Virus record (IMG/VR): IMGVR_UViG_3300038548_000309
Span: 1-29,014 of that record
Direction: 5' to 3' (one strand)
DNA: 29,014 bases
Origin: a virus
Below the pieces are notes generated by a model, which did no database searches, had not been told where the DNA came from, and worked only from the letters and a program-made list of their open reading frames with translations. Shown in pieces: positions 3,045-21,567 of this stretch (positions are counted from its first letter, which is position 1; each line of letters begins with the position of its first letter). The translations under genes were made by a program, and so were the position numbers.

Positions 3045-3971
3045 CTAGGCCCCTGAAGACCCGTCGATACCTCTCCAATCAGTTGAACCGGCACTCATCC
3101 TCGCGATGATACCGAACCAGCTGATCTGCTCCCGAGCTTCGAACCCACTGACATCGTCAGGAGTCGATCTCCAGAAGAACTGCAACGGGTACGACCTTGA
3201 GTTCTTCGGGATCAAGGTGAACCACGCATCGGCGTCCGTCAGATACTGCGACTTCATCGGGACGAGCCCCTGGCGGCTGATGACGTTCGAGGCCTCGAGA
3301 GACTCGATACCGTCGGCAGCAAACGTAGTCGTGACGACCTGCGTCTGCAAGATTTCCAGCGCCTGGAACCACCCAAAGATCGACACCAACACGTTCGTCG
3401 GCATCAGGTTGATCTTCAGGTCTCGGTCCGTCCGTAGGTCCATGAACCGCTCCAACGAGTTCTTGAGAGCAGTCGTGGAAAGATCCACGTCCGGATTGGC
3501 ACGGTTGGTGAAGGTCAAAGAACCTACACCGGTGTGAGCGATGTTGATGAGAGACACACCGTCATACGTCAGAACGGTCGAGAACGCACCATTCAGAACA
3601 GCATGAGCTGTGACCTCCTCGGCCTCACGCATCGAACGAGCCAAGTTCGACGCACCCTGACTATTCAGGGCACCATACACATCGTCCTCAACAGCCTCGC
3701 GGGTGATCTCAAACCCAAGACCAAACCCCGTGTGGATGTAGCGGACCTTCCCTCTGAACTTCGGCCGATCCATTGCAATCGGCGTTCCTTCAGGTCTCTT
3801 GACGGCGATTGGCATACCCGTAATCACCAGGTCATCTTCGTACGCCTGACTAGACGTGTCCACATTGAAGATGCCAGGATAGATCGCAGGAAGCTCGTTG
3901 TAGTCATCGATAAAGACCTTACGAGCACCAGGCCGCAAGAGGTTGTCGAATTGCCCTCTCACAACAGTCAT
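3045..3971 (-). CDS. Major capsid protein
   Basis: 308 residues, the usual size of a HK97-fold shell protein. Recognisable features are the N-terminal FDNLLRPGARKVFIDDYNELP segment, a GLGFEITREAVEDDVYG segment like the long-helix/E-loop part of Mu gpT-type capsids, MREAEEVTAHAVLNGAF, and a C-terminal GFEAREQISWFGIIARM strand pair. The ATG has an AGGAGAG ribosome binding site. It lies directly after a decoration-type gene and a scaffold-like gene, the standard head-module order. The exact capsid subfamily is not certain. Confidence 0.85.
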   Translation of the reverse strand: MTVVRGQFDNLLRPGARKVFIDDYNELPAIYPGIFNVDTSSQAYEDDLVITGMPIAVKRPEGTPIAMDRPKFRGKVRYIHTGFGLGFEITREAVEDDVYGALNSQGASNLARSMREAEEVTAHAVLNGAFSTVLTYDGVSLINIAHTGVGSLTFTNRANPDVDLSTTALKNSLERFMDLRTDRDLKINLMPTNVLVSIFGWFQALEILQTQVVTTTFAADGIESLEASNVISRQGLVPMKSQYLTDADAWFTLIPKNSRSYPLQFFWRSTPDDVSGFEAREQISWFGIIARMSAGSTDWRGIDGSSGA

Positions 3972-5773: not shown

Positions 5774-6055
5774 TTACTTCTTCTCTCCTAAAATCATCGA
5801 AGCCAGTTCGGGATCTGTTCGTTTCAGATCTTCGAAAGACTCATTCATCCTCTTTGCCATATACTCCTCGAACGGAGTCTCGTTAACCTCCGACAGGCTC
5901 TCCACCAAAGAGTATATCCGTTCCCAGTTCTGCAGCGCCCCCTGTCGGCGGAGGAAGTCTTGGTGGCTCTCCGCTTGACTCAGGTACTCCAGTATCTCTG
6001 CGCCTAAGAATTTCAGCCTCTCGCAGTAGACCTTCCAGCCCGCTGAGCTTTTCAT
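5774..6055 (-). CDS. Small helical protein overlapping the portal gene
   Basis: 93 residues from an ATG at 6055. The frame remains open upstream to 6250. The 173-bp overlap with the end of the portal gene is unusually long. The protein (AGWKVYCERLKFLGAEILEYL... FLRRQGALQNWERIYSLVE) resembles the small helical proteins often encoded after portal genes in tailed phages: a 'GW+' start, a helix and an 'R.QG.L..' helix. That similarity makes the overlap believable. A later start outside the portal gene would remove this core. Function unknown. Confidence 0.6.
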   Translation of the reverse strand: MKSSAGWKVYCERLKFLGAEILEYLSQAESHQDFLRRQGALQNWERIYSLVESLSEVNETPFEEYMAKRMNESFEDLKRTDPELASMILGEKK

Positions 6056-7988
6056 TGATCTCAGCGCTCTCAACTCCTCTGCTGAAAGCTTCCAATCCCC
6101 CCAGGTCCTCTGCTCGAGGAAGGAGGCGCTCAAGGACCGTAAGACCTGCGAGTGCTTCTTCCGGATCGGAGATGTCAAACGTCTCCAGTACATCACCCAT
6201 GAACTTTTGAGCCCCGCCAACCATCGACCTAACAACCTCAGGTAAAGCATCTGGCGCCAATCCTTGAGCTAGAGGTATCATCTGTTGATAGAGAGTGGTA
6301 AGCAGGTTGAACATCGCAATCGAGTTCTCCCGCTTGACCTGTCGATTCTGCAGTGATGTCGGAGCCTGTACCTTGACAGCCAACCCCAACTCCACCACAC
6401 GCCTCGGCAGCCTGAAGACCGCTTCTACTGTTCGACCCCGTTCTCCCATCCAGGCAAGACCCTTCCCATTCACTCCGAACTGGAAGTAGAGATCAATAGC
6501 CTGACTTCCAATCTCATCCAAGCCTGAGCGGATTCCACGAACAGTCAGGTCAATCCTCTTAGCTTGTTCCTGGAGGAGGGCTAACTGGGCCGATGCGGTA
6601 GTCCGTGATACTGGCTGCGCGGAGCCCGCGGTTACCTCATTGGTCCCAGATAGCCGCTCCCCATAGTCCCTGAGCATCAACTCCTCGTTCACAGTCGAGG
6701 GGTAGATCTCGGATATTCTCATCTCTCGAATGTCGTTGTGTACGTCCAAGACCTCGAGGATCTTACCTGAGTACAGTGGATCACCAGGCTGTAGAGCCCT
6801 GACTCCTTTCCGCTTCAGGAATATCTTCAAGCTGGCCAGAGTGATGTTATCGGATCGCTGGTTGTAGCGAGAGCTGATAGCCTCCTGAATCTGCTCCAGC
6901 ATCTCACACAGCCCTTGATCGTAGAACCTTCCAGGTACAGGGAAGTAACCCAACTTGACGAAAGGACGCTTCCCATGCCAGTAGGGATGAAACTGTCGTC
7001 CAACGATCTTCTGTAGCTTCTCGTTGTAATAGACGACGATCTCAGTCATCTTAGGCAGCTCGCCGTTCGACTCCGATTTCGACTTCAAGTCATAGGTAAG
7101 CCAGACTTCGTAGAACACGAACTCCTCTCTGAAGTGTGGCTCAGTCTCCTCAATTTCCTCAGCCAGTTTCTTCTGGTCTGGAATCCTACTATCATCAGCA
7201 GGCTTCTGATCCTTGAGTAGATCCCAAGTTCCCTTCTGGAAGCGGCCACTCCGCTCGTGGTCAATGATGTCTGTTTCATTGAGACGTATCCGCTTGGCAC
7301 ACCACCTGGCTCTTTGAATGTCTGACTCCGCAAAGCGAATGATGAAGTCAGTCAGATCCATATTGTAAGTGATCGGCCCATCGTGCATGACCAATGACTT
7401 CGGAAACACACCGGTTCCATCGGAGGTGATCTGGAAGAACTCTTTCTCAATAGCCTCGTAGCCCACCTCGAGTACCGAAGTACCTAACTGTGCTGCTTCG
7501 ATAATCCAGGGGACAGCAGTCTTGTCGATCTTCAGATCTCTTTCTGAGGCGATGTCAAGGAAGACTTCGATCTCATCAACGAAGGACTCCCACTCCTCAG
7601 CTAGATCAGTTAACACCCATCTGGGACGAGCAGTCAGGGTTGCCTGAACTAGTTGAGCAGTAAGAGTATTCACTGCCTCTTTGACGACGGGCAGGGTAAG
7701 ATTCGACGCACCGAAGAATGGGAACGTCTTGGGTCCCTCAGGCATGGGCACATCATACACCAGCTTCCAGCGAGCCAACTTCCTTTCGAAGTCAGACCTC
7801 TCGTTCAATGCTCGCCAGATCTCGTCCCGTACGAAGTTCGTAACGTCATCGCAGATAGGATCCCACATCGAACTAGGGATCTGAGCCGCGATCGGCGTCT
7901 CTTCGATAGGAGCTTCAGATTCTTCCGGTGGTTCCTCGGTAAGAACCTTCAGCTCTTTTACCGGCTTTGGTATGATATGGTCAGGCAT
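5883..7988 (-). CDS. Portal protein
   Basis: 701 residues, in the size range of podoviral (P22-like) portals, which form the dodecameric DNA gate and terminase docking site at one capsid vertex. Supporting features: an N-terminal acidic tail, then LARWKLVYDVPMPEGPKTFPFFGASNLTLP with the characteristic 'PF.GASN.T.P' turn, WHGKRPFVKLGYFPVPGRFYDQGL in the clip/stem region, a QIQEAISSRYNQRSDN helix and SGTNEVTAGSAQPVSRTTASAQ before the crown. The C-terminal 45 residues are Pro/Gly-rich and overlap the next gene. The start lies 2 bp after the stop of the preceding gene. Confidence 0.85.
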   Translation of the reverse strand: MPDHIIPKPVKELKVLTEEPPEESEAPIEETPIAAQIPSSMWDPICDDVTNFVRDEIWRALNERSDFERKLARWKLVYDVPMPEGPKTFPFFGASNLTLPVVKEAVNTLTAQLVQATLTARPRWVLTDLAEEWESFVDEIEVFLDIASERDLKIDKTAVPWIIEAAQLGTSVLEVGYEAIEKEFFQITSDGTGVFPKSLVMHDGPITYNMDLTDFIIRFAESDIQRARWCAKRIRLNETDIIDHERSGRFQKGTWDLLKDQKPADDSRIPDQKKLAEEIEETEPHFREEFVFYEVWLTYDLKSKSESNGELPKMTEIVVYYNEKLQKIVGRQFHPYWHGKRPFVKLGYFPVPGRFYDQGLCEMLEQIQEAISSRYNQRSDNITLASLKIFLKRKGVRALQPGDPLYSGKILEVLDVHNDIREMRISEIYPSTVNEELMLRDYGERLSGTNEVTAGSAQPVSRTTASAQLALLQEQAKRIDLTVRGIRSGLDEIGSQAIDLYFQFGVNGKGLAWMGERGRTVEAVFRLPRRVVELGLAVKVQAPTSLQNRQVKRENSIAMFNLLTTLYQQMIPLAQGLAPDALPEVVRSMVGGAQKFMGDVLETFDISDPEEALAGLTVLERLLPRAEDLGGLEAFSRGVESAEINEKLSGLEGLLREAEILRRRDTGVPESSGEPPRLPPPTGGAAELGTDILFGGEPVGG

Positions 7989-11295: not shown

Positions 11296-12990
11296 TTATC
11301 TTCCTAAGTGGGTTCGGTAACCAGTAGCGTTGAGCTGGCCTAGGTACGCTTTTTCATCCCAAGCTGGCTTCTCTGTGGGCTTGAATAGAGGTAGAACACC
11401 GATATGCTTCTCTACGTAGTCTCTTTCCGTCTGAGCGTGCTCCATAGCCTCTGCTTCGCTCATCAGAGCCGGCCAGTAGTCCAAACTCTGCGAGAATGAG
11501 TCCACTCCATCATCGTGACGGACATTAGGGTGGAATTCAAACTGTTCAACCAGTTCTGTCTGCGTCTTGTGCAGCCAAACTAGATTTGAGTTGACTAACG
11601 GCTGGCAAGCCTTGATATGTTCCTCTTTAGCCCACTGTGCCTTCTCAGATCCTTCCGGAGGCCACTGGATCAGCGGAGGATAGGGAAGATTCTCTCGTTC
11701 CGCCTTCTCTTGGACCCAGTACTTCGTAGCTCCTTGATATCCCCGGTACTCGACGGAGATTATCGAAGGTCTCCACTTCTTATCTAGCTCAAAGAGGAGC
11801 TGGACGGCCTCATCGGGAGGATAGTGACCCACATGGGCTTCTAGAACGATGCGATAGGGGAGGGGATAGCCCTTTAGCAGGACTAGGATCGAATTCATCG
11901 ACGATCCCTTCTTCTCAGCGCGAGATGGGTCGTAGACTATGATCCTTTCTCCTCCCCAAGGAGAGATCTTGAGGAACAACTCACCATCATGAGCACATAT
12001 GATCATTCTACCGTCAGGGGACCACCGCCAGAAGCGAAGGTTCTCGTCATCGAACGTATTGAGCCCCGTTCCTTTCGGAGAGTTCGCATATTGGGCGTGG
12101 TAACGCTGAGGGTCCCACTTCTTCATCCTCATAAGGAAGGCCATCGTGTTCTGCTCGGGGAAGATGACCTCCCCATTCTCAATATCCCTCCTCCAGAACA
12201 CAGCCATCTCACCTTTCTGTGTTGCGTGAGGTCCTATCTCCTGAGTCTCGAAGCCATCACCATATCGTTTCTGCTGAACCTCGTACAGATCCCCTTTCTT
12301 CTTCCTGGAACCTGTGAAGTCGATCAATCCTTCGATCTCAGAGTTCAACAGCGACTCCAAACCTCCAGCCCAAGTGTTCAGAGCTTCCATCTCAACGTCA
12401 GAGCGAATACATTTCTCAGTTACGAGGTCATCTGGGCGGATGATGTCGTAGTGTCGTGACTCGATACCACCCATAGCGCCAATGGCATCAATCGTAGGCT
12501 CTCGTCTCACCTTATTCCGAGGAACGATCATCTCAGATTGCGACCAGATGGCCTTCGTGAAGTTCTCAGGGATCAACTCGGAGTACAACCAGCGGAACAA
12601 CTCGTTCATCATGAAGTGTTGCTGGATCTCCCTCATGAATCGAGAGGCATTGATCGCTGTATCCGCTACGATCAAGATAGTGACGTTGGGATCTCGAAGA
12701 ATGTCTTGGATCGAGAGAGCGATTGTCCAGATTGTAGTCTTGAAGTGGGTCCGAGGCATGAGCTTGAGGCGTCTGTGAGCCTTAACCTCATTCGCGAAGC
12801 GGCACATCGGCATGTGGACATGGGGAACTAGCTTGTCGTAGCCGAGGATTACCTTGCAGAGATAGTAGAGATCCTCTTTGCCCAGGTTCCTCATCCTCTC
12901 CCGGGTCTCTGGATCTGGAGTTACAGGTTTCTTCGGGAGGTTCTCAGGATCTGTGTTCTGATAGACCGAGTTAGAGATTCCCTCAGTCAT
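11296..12990 (-). CDS. terL: Terminase large subunit
   Basis: 564 residues from the ATG at 12990, which overlaps the small terminase stop by 8 bp; the frame is open further upstream, but that part lies inside the small terminase gene. The protein is the packaging motor ATPase plus headful/end nuclease. ATPase: Walker A-like PRTHFKTT (79-86), with Phe where Gly/Leu/Ser is usual before the Lys, a following TILIVADTAINASRFMREIQ segment, and Walker B region HYDIIRPDDLV (180-190). Nuclease of RNase H fold: IIVYDPSRAEKKGSS (Asp354), SVEYRG (Glu414) and RHDDGVDSFSQSLDYW (Asp493, 494, 497). It docks on the portal with the small subunit encoded just upstream. Confidence 0.9.
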   Translation of the reverse strand: MTEGISNSVYQNTDPENLPKKPVTPDPETRERMRNLGKEDLYYLCKVILGYDKLVPHVHMPMCRFANEVKAHRRLKLMPRTHFKTTIWTIALSIQDILRDPNVTILIVADTAINASRFMREIQQHFMMNELFRWLYSELIPENFTKAIWSQSEMIVPRNKVRREPTIDAIGAMGGIESRHYDIIRPDDLVTEKCIRSDVEMEALNTWAGGLESLLNSEIEGLIDFTGSRKKKGDLYEVQQKRYGDGFETQEIGPHATQKGEMAVFWRRDIENGEVIFPEQNTMAFLMRMKKWDPQRYHAQYANSPKGTGLNTFDDENLRFWRWSPDGRMIICAHDGELFLKISPWGGERIIVYDPSRAEKKGSSMNSILVLLKGYPLPYRIVLEAHVGHYPPDEAVQLLFELDKKWRPSIISVEYRGYQGATKYWVQEKAERENLPYPPLIQWPPEGSEKAQWAKEEHIKACQPLVNSNLVWLHKTQTELVEQFEFHPNVRHDDGVDSFSQSLDYWPALMSEAEAMEHAQTERDYVEKHIGVLPLFKPTEKPAWDEKAYLGQLNATGYRTHLGR

Positions 12991-13534
12991 CTGCCAGTTC
13001 CACTTCAGCTCCGAATCCCACAGCCGGAACCTCCTCAACCTCCTCGAGTTCCTTAGGAGCAATCTCCTTGTACATCCCGCGATACTCAGTCAGCTCTCGA
13101 GTAGTCTCCTCCATCCTCTGGACAACATCCTCAGGTAGGAGAGGAGGAGCTTCTTCCCTTACTTCTCTGACTGGCGTGTATCCAGCCCGGTCCAGTAAGC
13201 CGAATGCTGCTGTTTGACGAACTTTCTCATTGCGCGATGTTCGGAGTTCTTCCACGATCTCATCCAGTGCCTCATTAGCATATAGCTTGATCCGGAGAGC
13301 AGTATCAATAGTCCGGTCTGCGACACTCTGCGCAAGATTCTCGATGTCATAGATCGCCCTAGGATCATTGAGGATGAGTGAGATGTGGGACTCAGAGACC
13401 CCGAGCTTCTGAGCTATCTCCCTTCCCTTATCGCCTGCTAGATGCAGGGCAACAATCAAACGGTGACGAGGACTCCATTTCTCCGGAGACCACTCCTTCT
13501 CACCATTCAATAAGGGAAGTAGATCGACCGACAT
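12983..13534 (-). CDS. terS: Terminase small subunit
   Basis: 183 residues with a GGAGAAGG site. Residues about 23-58 form a helix-turn-helix (RHRLIVALHLAGDKGREIAQ, then KLGVSESHISLILNDP), the DNA-recognition part of small terminases. A long helical oligomerisation region follows (TALRIKLYANEALDEIVEEL), then an acidic tail. It recognises the packaging start site and feeds DNA to the large subunit, whose gene overlaps its end. First gene of the late operon, about 50 bp downstream of a consensus promoter. The HTH alone could suit a repressor, but the neighbouring large terminase decides. Confidence 0.8.
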   Translation of the reverse strand: MSVDLLPLLNGEKEWSPEKWSPRHRLIVALHLAGDKGREIAQKLGVSESHISLILNDPRAIYDIENLAQSVADRTIDTALRIKLYANEALDEIVEELRTSRNEKVRQTAAFGLLDRAGYTPVREVREEAPPLLPEDVVQRMEETTRELTEYRGMYKEIAPKELEEVEEVPAVGFGAEVELADD

Positions 13535-13586: not shown

Positions 13587-13615
13587 ATCATAACCCTTTT
13601 CAGTGCATTTGTCAA
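13587..13615 (-). promoter_or_regulatory. Late operon promoter (sigma-70 type)
   Basis: On the minus strand: TTGACA at 13615-13610, a 17-bp spacer, TATGAT at 13592-13587. This differs from the full consensus by one base in the -10 box. The expected transcript start is near 13580, leaving a leader of about 45 nt before the small terminase ATG at 13534. A host-type promoter ahead of virion genes implies regulation by repression or timing and not by a phage polymerase. Confidence 0.75.
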
Positions 13616-13720: not shown

Positions 13721-13735
13721 GTTCATCGGATGAAC
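13721..13735 (+). promoter_or_regulatory. Dispersed palindromic operator-like site 2
   Basis: GTTCATCGGATGAAC followed by ACCTC, about 105 bp upstream of the late promoter -35 box in the divergent control region. The 15-bp core is identical on the plus strand to the core at 9940-9954. A second partial copy, GTTCATCG, lies 12 bp upstream at about 13709. Confidence 0.6.
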
Positions 13736-13830
13736 ACCTCACTCAACAGAGTGGGTCATTCTTAAAAAAATTAGACATGTTTGTAGTGGTATTCTGGGGG
13801 ATACGCGCACCAATGGGGGGCTATGGGGTA

Positions 13831-14141
13831 CCCTCTTACCTTAATCGCAGCTCCCCGGTGGCCGCTCATGTTAATCGCAGGTGGTCCCGCACCCTCTCAT
13901 GTTAATCGCAGCTCGGGGTGTCGCTTACCTTAATCGCAGTGTGTGCGACGAAGTATGCCATAATGGCAGGTGTTCATGCCACTTTGGCTGTACCATGTAG
14001 GTGACACCCCGTCCCATCGTAGTGACACCCACGTAAGTCGTTGTGGCACATGCACTTACGCCAGTCACATGGTAATCGCAGTCGATTTGGGTGTCACTAG
14101 GTTAGGACACACTGGCCTACCCATGTGATTAAGGTGAGCGC
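13831..14141 (+). repeat. Iteron-like TTAATCGCAG array
   Basis: TTAATCGCAG occurs at 13841, 13871, 13902 and 13930, a spacing of 28-31 bp or about three helical turns. A degenerate copy (ATAATGGCAG) follows at 13960, and a further copy (GTAATCGCAG) at 14072. The bases before each copy are also alike (CTTACC or CTCATG). An inverted copy, GCTCACCTTAATC on the minus strand, lies at about 14127-14139. Same-face spacing suggests cooperative binding of one protein, as in iteron origins or regulatory arrays. The gene for such a protein is not identified. Confidence 0.65.
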
Positions 14142-14170
14142 TGTAAGTCCATGTGGGACAACGACTTACG
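14032..14170. repeat. Long-range inverted repeat in control region
   Basis: CGTAAGTCGTTGT at 14032-14044 is exactly inverted as ACAACGACTTACG at 14158-14170. Allowing two mismatches the arms extend to 19 bp. Further GTAAGT or ACTTAC copies occur between the arms (about 14052 and 14143), as do GTGACACCC (about 14002 and 14022) and its inverse GGGTGTCAC (about 14089). The arms bracket the last iterons. They may be two inverted protein-binding sites, since the loop is too long for a simple hairpin. Confidence 0.55.
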
Positions 14171-14216
14171 AGGAAAGCGGATTTCTGGCACGGCGATTGC
14201 ATATGTTGTTGGTGTC

Positions 14217-14249
14217 GTGGGTCGCTACCCACCGGGGCGGAATCCCCGG
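14217..14249 (+). promoter_or_regulatory. Two tandem hairpins in leader
   Basis: GTGGGT-CGCT-ACCCAC (14217-14232) is followed at once by CCGGGG-CGGAAT-CCCCGG (14232-14249), two perfect 6-bp stems sharing one base. No T-run follows, so an intrinsic terminator is unlikely. They lie 75-105 bp upstream of the first early gene, and could be a structured 5' leader or protein-binding sites. Confidence 0.5.
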
Positions 14250-14260
14250 GACCCGCGTCT

Positions 14261-14714
14261 GATGTGACATTGTGTGTAGGGCATCTTTACTCACCTACTT
14301 GTTTCTCTATCTAGGAGTAAATATGTCTAGGATGCACACTTGGAGTAGTTCGCGGAATGGGATCTCTCACGATTTCAAACGTGAGGTTCCGACTGATGTT
14401 GACGAACTCGACCTGATCGTGGGTCTGTTCGGATCAACTGCCCGCATGGTCTGGCATGCTGTAACTAGTGCCACCATCGCGGTCGCCCCGGGTTGCCGGG
14501 ACCGGTTGGAGGATATCCCTGCGGCAGAGCTCTATGCGGCGGCATACGTCGCGGATGGCTCGAAGGAAACGGCCTATGTCAAGACCGTTACGCGGAGCGA
14601 ACTCGACGAACAGGACTTCAGTGAGAGCCAGATGGCGCTCATAGAGGAGAAGTTCGGTAAGCAGATCGTCGAGTAACTTCTAACCTTTAACTGCCCTGCG
14701 CACAATGTCACATC
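14261..14714. repeat. Inverted repeat flanking the first early gene
   Basis: GATGTGACATTGTG at 14261-14274 is exactly inverted at 14701-14714. Two mismatches extend the arms to 18 bp (14261-14278 and 14697-14714). The arms bracket the single gene at 14323-14676 almost symmetrically. No recombinase or transposase gene is nearby, so a pair of inverted operator sites is as likely as a mobile cassette. Confidence 0.5.
14323..14676 (+). CDS. Unknown early protein, paralogue of 17794-18153
   Basis: 117 residues from the ATG at 14323 with a TAGGAG site; an earlier in-frame ATG at 14272 lacks one. No known family. It aligns along its length with the protein at 17794-18153: both have a K/R-EVP strand near the N-terminus, a central helix with G(A/C)R.RLE, and an acidic C-terminal end with a (F/W)(S/T).xQ motif, here DFSESQMALIEEKFG. 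First gene of the rightward early block, bracketed by an inverted repeat. GC-rich, well-behaved codon use. Confidence 0.75.
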   Translation: MSRMHTWSSSRNGISHDFKREVPTDVDELDLIVGLFGSTARMVWHAVTSATIAVAPGCRDRLEDIPAAELYAAAYVADGSKETAYVKTVTRSELDEQDFSESQMALIEEKFGKQIVE

Positions 14715-21366: not shown

Positions 21367-21567
21367 ATGAGTGAGGCAGAACAGTTCGTCCTTGATGCAC
21401 TGGTGAGACATGAGAGGCTGAATAGGTTTGAGCTGATGACTATGATAGGCTCACCTCTCACGCCCAAGAAATCCTACTATACGTTACGAGACATGGAGGA
21501 TAAGGGACTGATCACCTCTCGCTTGGAGGCAGGTCACTCGTCCCATCGGTGGTATCGCAAGGTATGA
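21367..21567 (+). CDS. Winged-helix DNA-binding protein
   Basis: 66 residues, strong TAGGAGGTAGT site. The whole protein is one winged helix: EQFVLDALVRHERLNRFELMT, then SPLTPKKSYYTLRDMEDKGL (recognition helix region) and a wing ITSRLEAGHSSHRWYRKV. This is the size and order of small MarR/PadR-like regulators. It is the best candidate in the window for a DNA-binding regulator of the early genes, although its target is unknown. Confidence 0.7.
   Translation: MSEAEQFVLDALVRHERLNRFELMTMIGSPLTPKKSYYTLRDMEDKGLITSRLEAGHSSHRWYRKV

Follow-up and report, generated by a model that had tools for sequence, protein, structure and literature searches.

Repeats at the divergence of two phage gene blocks

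A cluster of short direct repeats between the late and early genes of an uncultivated phage raises the question of what such an array is for. An earlier note on this DNA described the cluster (13831-14141) as iterons and left two readings side by side, a replication origin or a regulatory nucleoprotein complex. We analyzed the repeats, their surroundings, and the same region in related phages, and find that the repeats are most likely exchangeable binding sites of a regulatory region rather than a proven origin, which replaces an ill-defined repeat array with a promoter model that can be tested.

The window, meaning the whole analyzed stretch of 29,014 nucleotides, is a 29-kb IMG/VR record of a tailed phage. 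The head and packaging genes in the window all run leftward, among them genes for the capsid (3045-3971), an SU10-type portal (5883-7988), the terminase large subunit, TerL (11296-12999), and the terminase small subunit, TerS, which is the first late gene (12983-13534, minus strand). Small early genes run rightward from 14323 up to those for a PD-(D/E)XK exonuclease, a Sak4-like ATPase, and an SSB-like protein. The first of them, E1 (14323-14676, plus strand), encodes 117 amino acids with no assigned function and is present in all 6 relatives compared here; its AlphaFold model has low confidence (pLDDT 53) and was not used as evidence.

DNA comparison with the phage collection identified no close relative of the window, and TerL identity in that collection was at most about 26% among the matches listed. 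In IMG/VR, TerL was found at 78-93% identity in 8 contigs, 6 of which have the same divergent late/early region. The comparison below therefore covers 7 phages, the window and L011, L012, L013, L014, L015, and L017, to all of which the divergent intergenic region is common; all 7 records are metagenomic, and none was rated complete by the tool used. L014 is a near-complete relative (47.8 kb) with all genes in 2 opposed blocks, so that the region is its one divergent control region; its replication genes, UDG-PolA and DUF3987, stand at the distal end of the early block. In a search for the host, TerL was scanned against GTDB genomes, and nothing matched.

The repeat array and its unit

Four exact copies of TTAATCGCAG were confirmed at 13841, 13871, 13902, and 13930, with spacings of 30, 31, and 28 bp; all lie within 100 bp, and no further exact copy was identified anywhere in the record. 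Among 300 dinucleotide shuffles of the window, none had any 10-mer at 4 copies within 110 bp, and 1 had a 10-mer at 3 copies within that distance. At up to 2 mismatches, TTAATCGCAG was seen 17 times in the window against 17.05 expected, a count at chance level, so weak copies alone count for little. The unit of the array is longer than 10 bp; it is the 16-bp CTYAYSTTAATCGCAG, an imperfect dyad centered on TTAA whose symmetry is weak. It reads CTTACCTTAATCGCAG in units 1 (13835-13850) and 4 (13924-13939) and CTCATGTTAATCGCAG in units 2 (13865-13880) and 3 (13896-13911), all on the plus strand, and we know of no regulator site that these weakly symmetric units resemble. Array units reach a density of 2.53 per kb in the region versus 0.045 per kb elsewhere. 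A search with Rfam at gathering thresholds and a tRNA search found no RNA element and no tRNA.

Beyond the 4 exact copies, the additional members that had been proposed fared differently. The sixth copy was recovered as GTAATCGCAG at 14072, one mismatch from TTAATCGCAG, in a lone unit-like site, CACATGGTAATCGCAG (14066-14081, plus strand), and the inverted copy as the near-copy CTCACCTTAATCACAT on the minus strand (14123-14138), a 16-bp match with 2 mismatches. The supposed degenerate fifth copy in register, ATAATGGCAG at 13960, turned out to be part of another conserved palindrome, TGCCATAATGGCA (13956-13968). Nor do the copies share one face of the helix, as their spacing had been taken to imply: at 10.5 bp per turn, the phases of the 4 exact copies are 0, 309, 291, and 171 degrees, with a resultant of 0.46, and a shared face would require about 10.0 bp per turn.

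Two opposed predicted promoters

The array is just one among about 5 element families in the region, which holds a predicted promoter on either side. Toward the early genes, TGGCACGGCGATTGCA (14186-14201, plus strand) is a predicted sigma-54 (-24/-12) early promoter that matches the consensus TGGCACG-N4-TTGCW exactly, with GG at -24, GC at -12, and 10 bp between them. No other site in the window matches sigma-54 as well, and sites with 2 mismatches occur there at chance level. The site stands 121 bp before the E1 start codon, with transcription expected to start near 14212. The GG and GC are present in all 7 phages, and in each of the fetched loci (7/7), the best sigma-54 match is intergenic, on the E1 strand, and at a similar distance from E1, with a tie in L014. 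The 7 sites agree in the bases G,G,C,A,G and T,G,C but not in the 4 spacer bases, and their flanks are variable; because the relatives are akin to one another, the sites are not 7 independent events, though spacer bases and flanks have diverged. With scoring weights that are our approximation of the published consensus, 6 of the 7 phages score at least 15.1, a level that shuffled sequence reaches about 3 times in a million positions. The intergenic site of L014 is the weakest of the 7 (score 13.9, 3 mismatches), and the full 47.8-kb contig has a better score (14.5) inside the DNA polymerase gene. No strong sigma-54 site was found in the divergent region of 2 distant phage genomes with similar architecture.

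We identified no sigma-54 activator domain, Fis-type HTH, or sigma-54 encoded in the phage records searched, so the host would supply both sigma-54 and its activator. An IHF site between enhancer and promoter is common at sigma-54 promoters, though not universal; here, no WATCARNNNNTTR at up to 1 mismatch was found between the upstream dyads and the promoter.

Downstream of the promoter, the 5' end of the early transcript is predicted to form a hairpin with GGA in its loop (14217-14256, plus strand). This strong predicted leader hairpin, right after the expected start, has GGA in the loop in 5 of the 7 phages and is CsrA/RsmA-like. Further, E1 is flanked in the window by a 23-bp inverted repeat, 91% complementary (14261-14283 and 14692-14714), which a simple search around E1 in L011, L012, L013, and L017 did not find.

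On the late side, a sigma-70-type promoter, TTGACA-N17-TATGAT, was predicted from sequence at 13587-13615 on the minus strand, and the pattern TTGACA-N17-TANNNT is present with no mismatch in all 7 phages. Farther toward the array come the palindrome GTTCATCGGATGAAC (GTTCA-N5-TGAAC; 13721-13735), exact in 7/7 phages, a conserved A/T-rich stretch, TTAAAAAAATTAGA (13762-13775), and a conserved G-rich block, ATTCTGGGGG...CAATGGGGGGCTATGGGGT (13791-13829), which abuts the array. The G-rich block CTGGGGGATACGCGCACCAATGGGGGGCTATGGGGT stands between array and late promoter in 7/7, and an IMG/VR scan found it only in these phages; we regard the block at 13791-13829 as a candidate origin or packaging element.

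Conserved elements upstream of the predicted early promoter

Between the array and the sigma-54 promoter, we identified three 18-bp dyads of the form TGT-N12-ACA that are candidate upstream activator sites: TGTACCATGTAGGTGACA (13989-14006), CGTCCCATCGTAGTGACA (14010-14027), 21 bp from the first, and TGTCACTAGGTTAGGACA (14092-14109). Counted from the first base of the sigma-54 promoter, as are all offsets here, such dyads stand at -94, -174/-176, and -196/-197 in the window, L012, and L014, in keeping with the 100-200 bp upstream at which dyad sites for enhancer-binding proteins typically lie. The upstream dyads of L013 and L017 are of other kinds, and L011 and L015 have no TGT-N12-ACA dyads upstream of the promoter and harbor other elements there instead. 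Among the known motifs of enhancer-binding proteins is a class with TGT/ACA half-sites separated by 9, 11, or 12 bp (PMC4641369). The density of TGT-N12-ACA dyads is 0.78 per kb in the region versus 0.030 per kb elsewhere, and for the array unit and these dyads the enrichment in the region is 26- to 57-fold.

A 27-bp palindrome is present in the window as a distal copy, GTAAGTCGTTGTGGCACATGCACTTAC (14033-14059), and as a proximal copy, GTAAGTCCATGTGGGACAACGACTTAC (14143-14169), adjoining the sigma-54 promoter. The distal position (-152/-153) is occupied in the window, L012, and L014 and the proximal one (-44) in the window, L011, L012, and L014; L013 and L017 have ACCGAA-N5-ACCGAA at the same -44 offset. 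Elements TGCCANNNTGGCA, of the type of the palindrome TGCCATAATGGCA, are present in the intergenic region of all 7 phages, and the window has a second TGCCANNNTGGC(A) element with 1 mismatch (13977-13989). At the thresholds used, the 27-bp palindrome, the CCGAA repeat, and the exact TGCCA palindrome are found in the region only.

The 27-bp palindrome, as GTAASTCSWTG-N5-CAWSGASTTAC, was also identified in at least 119 IMG/VR stretches, often several per contig, with pairs 50 bp apart and C/G interchange at fixed positions. It was found in a few MAG contigs of Fibrobacter, Treponema, Verrucomicrobia, and Planctomycetes, where the best adjacent sigma-54 score was 14.3; since these palindromes have no strong sigma-54 site beside them, the palindrome does not name the host. 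Three phage-like IMG/VR contigs, L114, L084, and L151 (33.8, 37.2, and 11.2 kb), harbor many sigma-54-type sites, with exact TGGCAYGNNNNYTGCW found 24, 24, and 4 times, respectively, and the reversed pattern 0 times. Their sites often form divergent pairs about 25 bp apart, near the 27-bp palindrome, and these contigs may belong to another phage group, unrelated to this one, that relies on sigma-54 throughout.

Exchange of the array among relatives

The array differs among the 7 phages. L011 has 3 TTAATCGCAG units plus a fourth, likewise in register, with the sequence TTATCCACAG, which is a perfect DnaA box; in L015, TTATCCACAG is accompanied by 1 degenerate unit; and L014 has a single TTATCTGCAG unit at the array start. 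In L012, 3 TTCGGTNTNTNTTCGGT (TTCGGT) units with a 26-bp period stand in the array's place (L012:7950-8070). The region is shorter in L013 and L017, which have neither the TTAATCGCAG array nor the L012-type array and carry single TTCGGTNTNTNTTCGGT copies directly beside the sigma-54 promoter. Conservation of the array between the window and L011 is 0.76, equal to that of the late-side block, whereas between the window and L012 it falls to 0.38 over the array stretch with the late side still at 0.71. The array was thus swapped in L012 while the late side was kept, which makes it a replaceable module anchored to the G-rich block that it abuts; its distance to the sigma-54 promoter is not fixed. 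A widespread iteron was considered and rejected, as exact tandem TTAATCGCAG pairs in IMG/VR were limited to L007/L011 and 5 unrelated contigs, 4 of which are near-identical to one another.

Origin, repressor operators, or packaging sites

The array could be part of a replication origin, its repeats serving as DnaA-box-like or initiator-binding iterons by the A/T-rich stretch (13762-13775) and the G-rich block, a reading that we consider unlikely. Three perfect TTATNCACA boxes occur in the 7 loci (about 140 kb), and 2 of the 3 are the array units of L011 and L015; the window units, TTAATCGCA, have 3 differences from the DnaA consensus, TTATCCACA, one of them at the variable position. Array sequences are also exchanged between relatives, as initiator/iteron pairs can be. 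The window itself, however, has no perfect DnaA box, 3 of the 7 phages have neither array nor DnaA box, and the flanking stretch, at an A/T content of about 0.64 over 50 bp, does not stand out as A/T-rich. No initiator gene linked to the region was recognized, with the UDG-PolA and DUF3987 genes far off. GC skew, which the earlier note had proposed as a check, does change sign at the region, both in the window and in near-complete L014, where it changes back at the convergent end, but all genes turn direction there too; because skew flips wherever genes flip, it is wholly confounded with gene direction and uninformative on an origin. That note had also looked to relatives with the same early genes, and here the outcome is divided: the array is missing in L012, L013, and L017 despite the same first early gene, while the skew change persists. 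The absence from these 3 phages leaves the term iteron, in the sense of an initiator-binding repeat, not established; it is apt for tandem direct repeats in 4 exact copies, but conservation with a cognate initiator was not seen. Of the 2 readings first offered, the regulatory one gains from apparent sigma-54 and sigma-70-type promoters in 7/7 phages and from several families of dyad sites at fixed distances from the sigma-54 promoter; an origin co-located in the region is less probable but would be compatible with the DnaA boxes of L011 and L015 and the skew change.

We regard as improbable that the array consists of operators of a phage-encoded repressor, swapped among relatives like lambdoid immunity regions. 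Close relatives do have differing arrays at one place, one in the window and L011 and another in L012, and every element family is concentrated in this single divergent region. Yet no integrase or CI-like repressor was recognized among the phage genes examined, a Pfam/PHROGs scan covering part of the small early proteins recognized no repressor, and small candidate DNA-binding proteins, such as that encoded at 21367-21567, have family matches below threshold.

Lambda cosB R sites are repeats that precede the gene for the terminase small subunit, and the array is comparable in lying about 300 bp upstream of terS, but that it comprises cosB- or pac-type packaging sites for the TerS encoded next door is highly improbable and was rejected, because the array is lost in L012, L013, and L017 where TerS stays about 80% identical (78-81%, with a near-identical recognition helix in L012), none of the 7 contigs ends at the region, and better-conserved blocks stand closer to terS than the array does.

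A probable exchangeable module in the divergent control region

Regulation is the best reading of the array because 2 promoters are opposed, conserved dyads stand at fixed offsets, and arrays are replaced by arrays. As judged from sequence comparison, we put at roughly 0.58 the probability that the array works as an exchangeable operator/enhancer module between a sigma-54 early and a sigma-70-type late promoter that share one divergent control region. What can be read directly from the DNA is how well the promoter matches and is conserved, along with the dyads, the array, and its replacement in relatives; from these we infer the use of sigma-54, a protein that would bind the array, and an activating or repressing effect of that binding. 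Under this model, the array would provide tandem predicted binding sites for a dimeric DNA-binding protein, with the predicted sigma-54 early promoter (14186-14201, rightward) and the sigma-70-type late promoter (about 13587-13615, leftward) facing apart. Host sigma-54 RNA polymerase would transcribe the early operon after activation by a host enhancer-binding protein on the upstream dyads, the best candidate sites being the TGT-N12-ACA dyads at distances of about 110, 190, and 215 bp from the early start. The TTAATCGCAG array may tune one or both promoters; it lies upstream of each, at 280-370 bp from the early start and 260-350 bp from the late start. Several observations weigh against this model: the weak symmetry of the array units, the variable distance of the array from the sigma-54 promoter, the weak intergenic site of L014, the missing IHF-like site, the 2 distant genomes with no strong sigma-54 site in their divergent region, and the perfect DnaA boxes of L011 and L015, which favor an origin.

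If the early operon needs sigma-54, it would stay off until a host enhancer-binding protein has been activated, which would tie infection to host signaling. The wider proposal, that environmental phages entrust early transcription to the host sigma-54/enhancer-binding-protein system via a modular, rapidly exchanged enhancer and infect only when a certain host signaling pathway is active, is tentative, and we rate it at slightly below even odds. In that case, the TTAATCGCAG array would belong to a set of several enhancer/operator cassettes that can replace one another. A keyword match in open-access text found no report of sigma-54 control of phage early genes.

Comparison with known systems

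Replication iterons, such as those of R6K, P1, RK2, and the lambda origin, resemble the array in being short tandem direct repeats in a noncoding control region. Their period is about 20-22 bp, and the array differs from them in its period of about 30 bp, in having no linked initiator gene, in being missing from close relatives, and in its location in a promoter region. DnaA box clusters are matched by L011 and L015, with TTATCCACA in the array register, but not by the window, where the units are TTAATCGCA rather than the consensus box. Lambdoid immunity operators likewise form arrays that can be exchanged and that lie in a divergent control region; here, in contrast, no cognate repressor was recognized, and one of the 2 promoters looks sigma-54 dependent.

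The tailed phages studied so far usually open infection with sigma-70-type promoters or with a polymerase of their own. The closest likeness of the predicted early promoter is to bacterial sigma-54 promoters, for example, those of the Desulfovibrio vulgaris regulome (PMC4641369), which are alike in the -24/-12 elements and, as far as the candidate sites of the window, L012, and L014 go, in a cluster of TGT/ACA dyads 100-220 bp upstream. Unlike these, the predicted promoter would drive a phage early operon, has no activator gene nearby, and is accompanied by an extra tandem 30-bp array further upstream, with several dyad families stacked in the region and exchanged among phage relatives.
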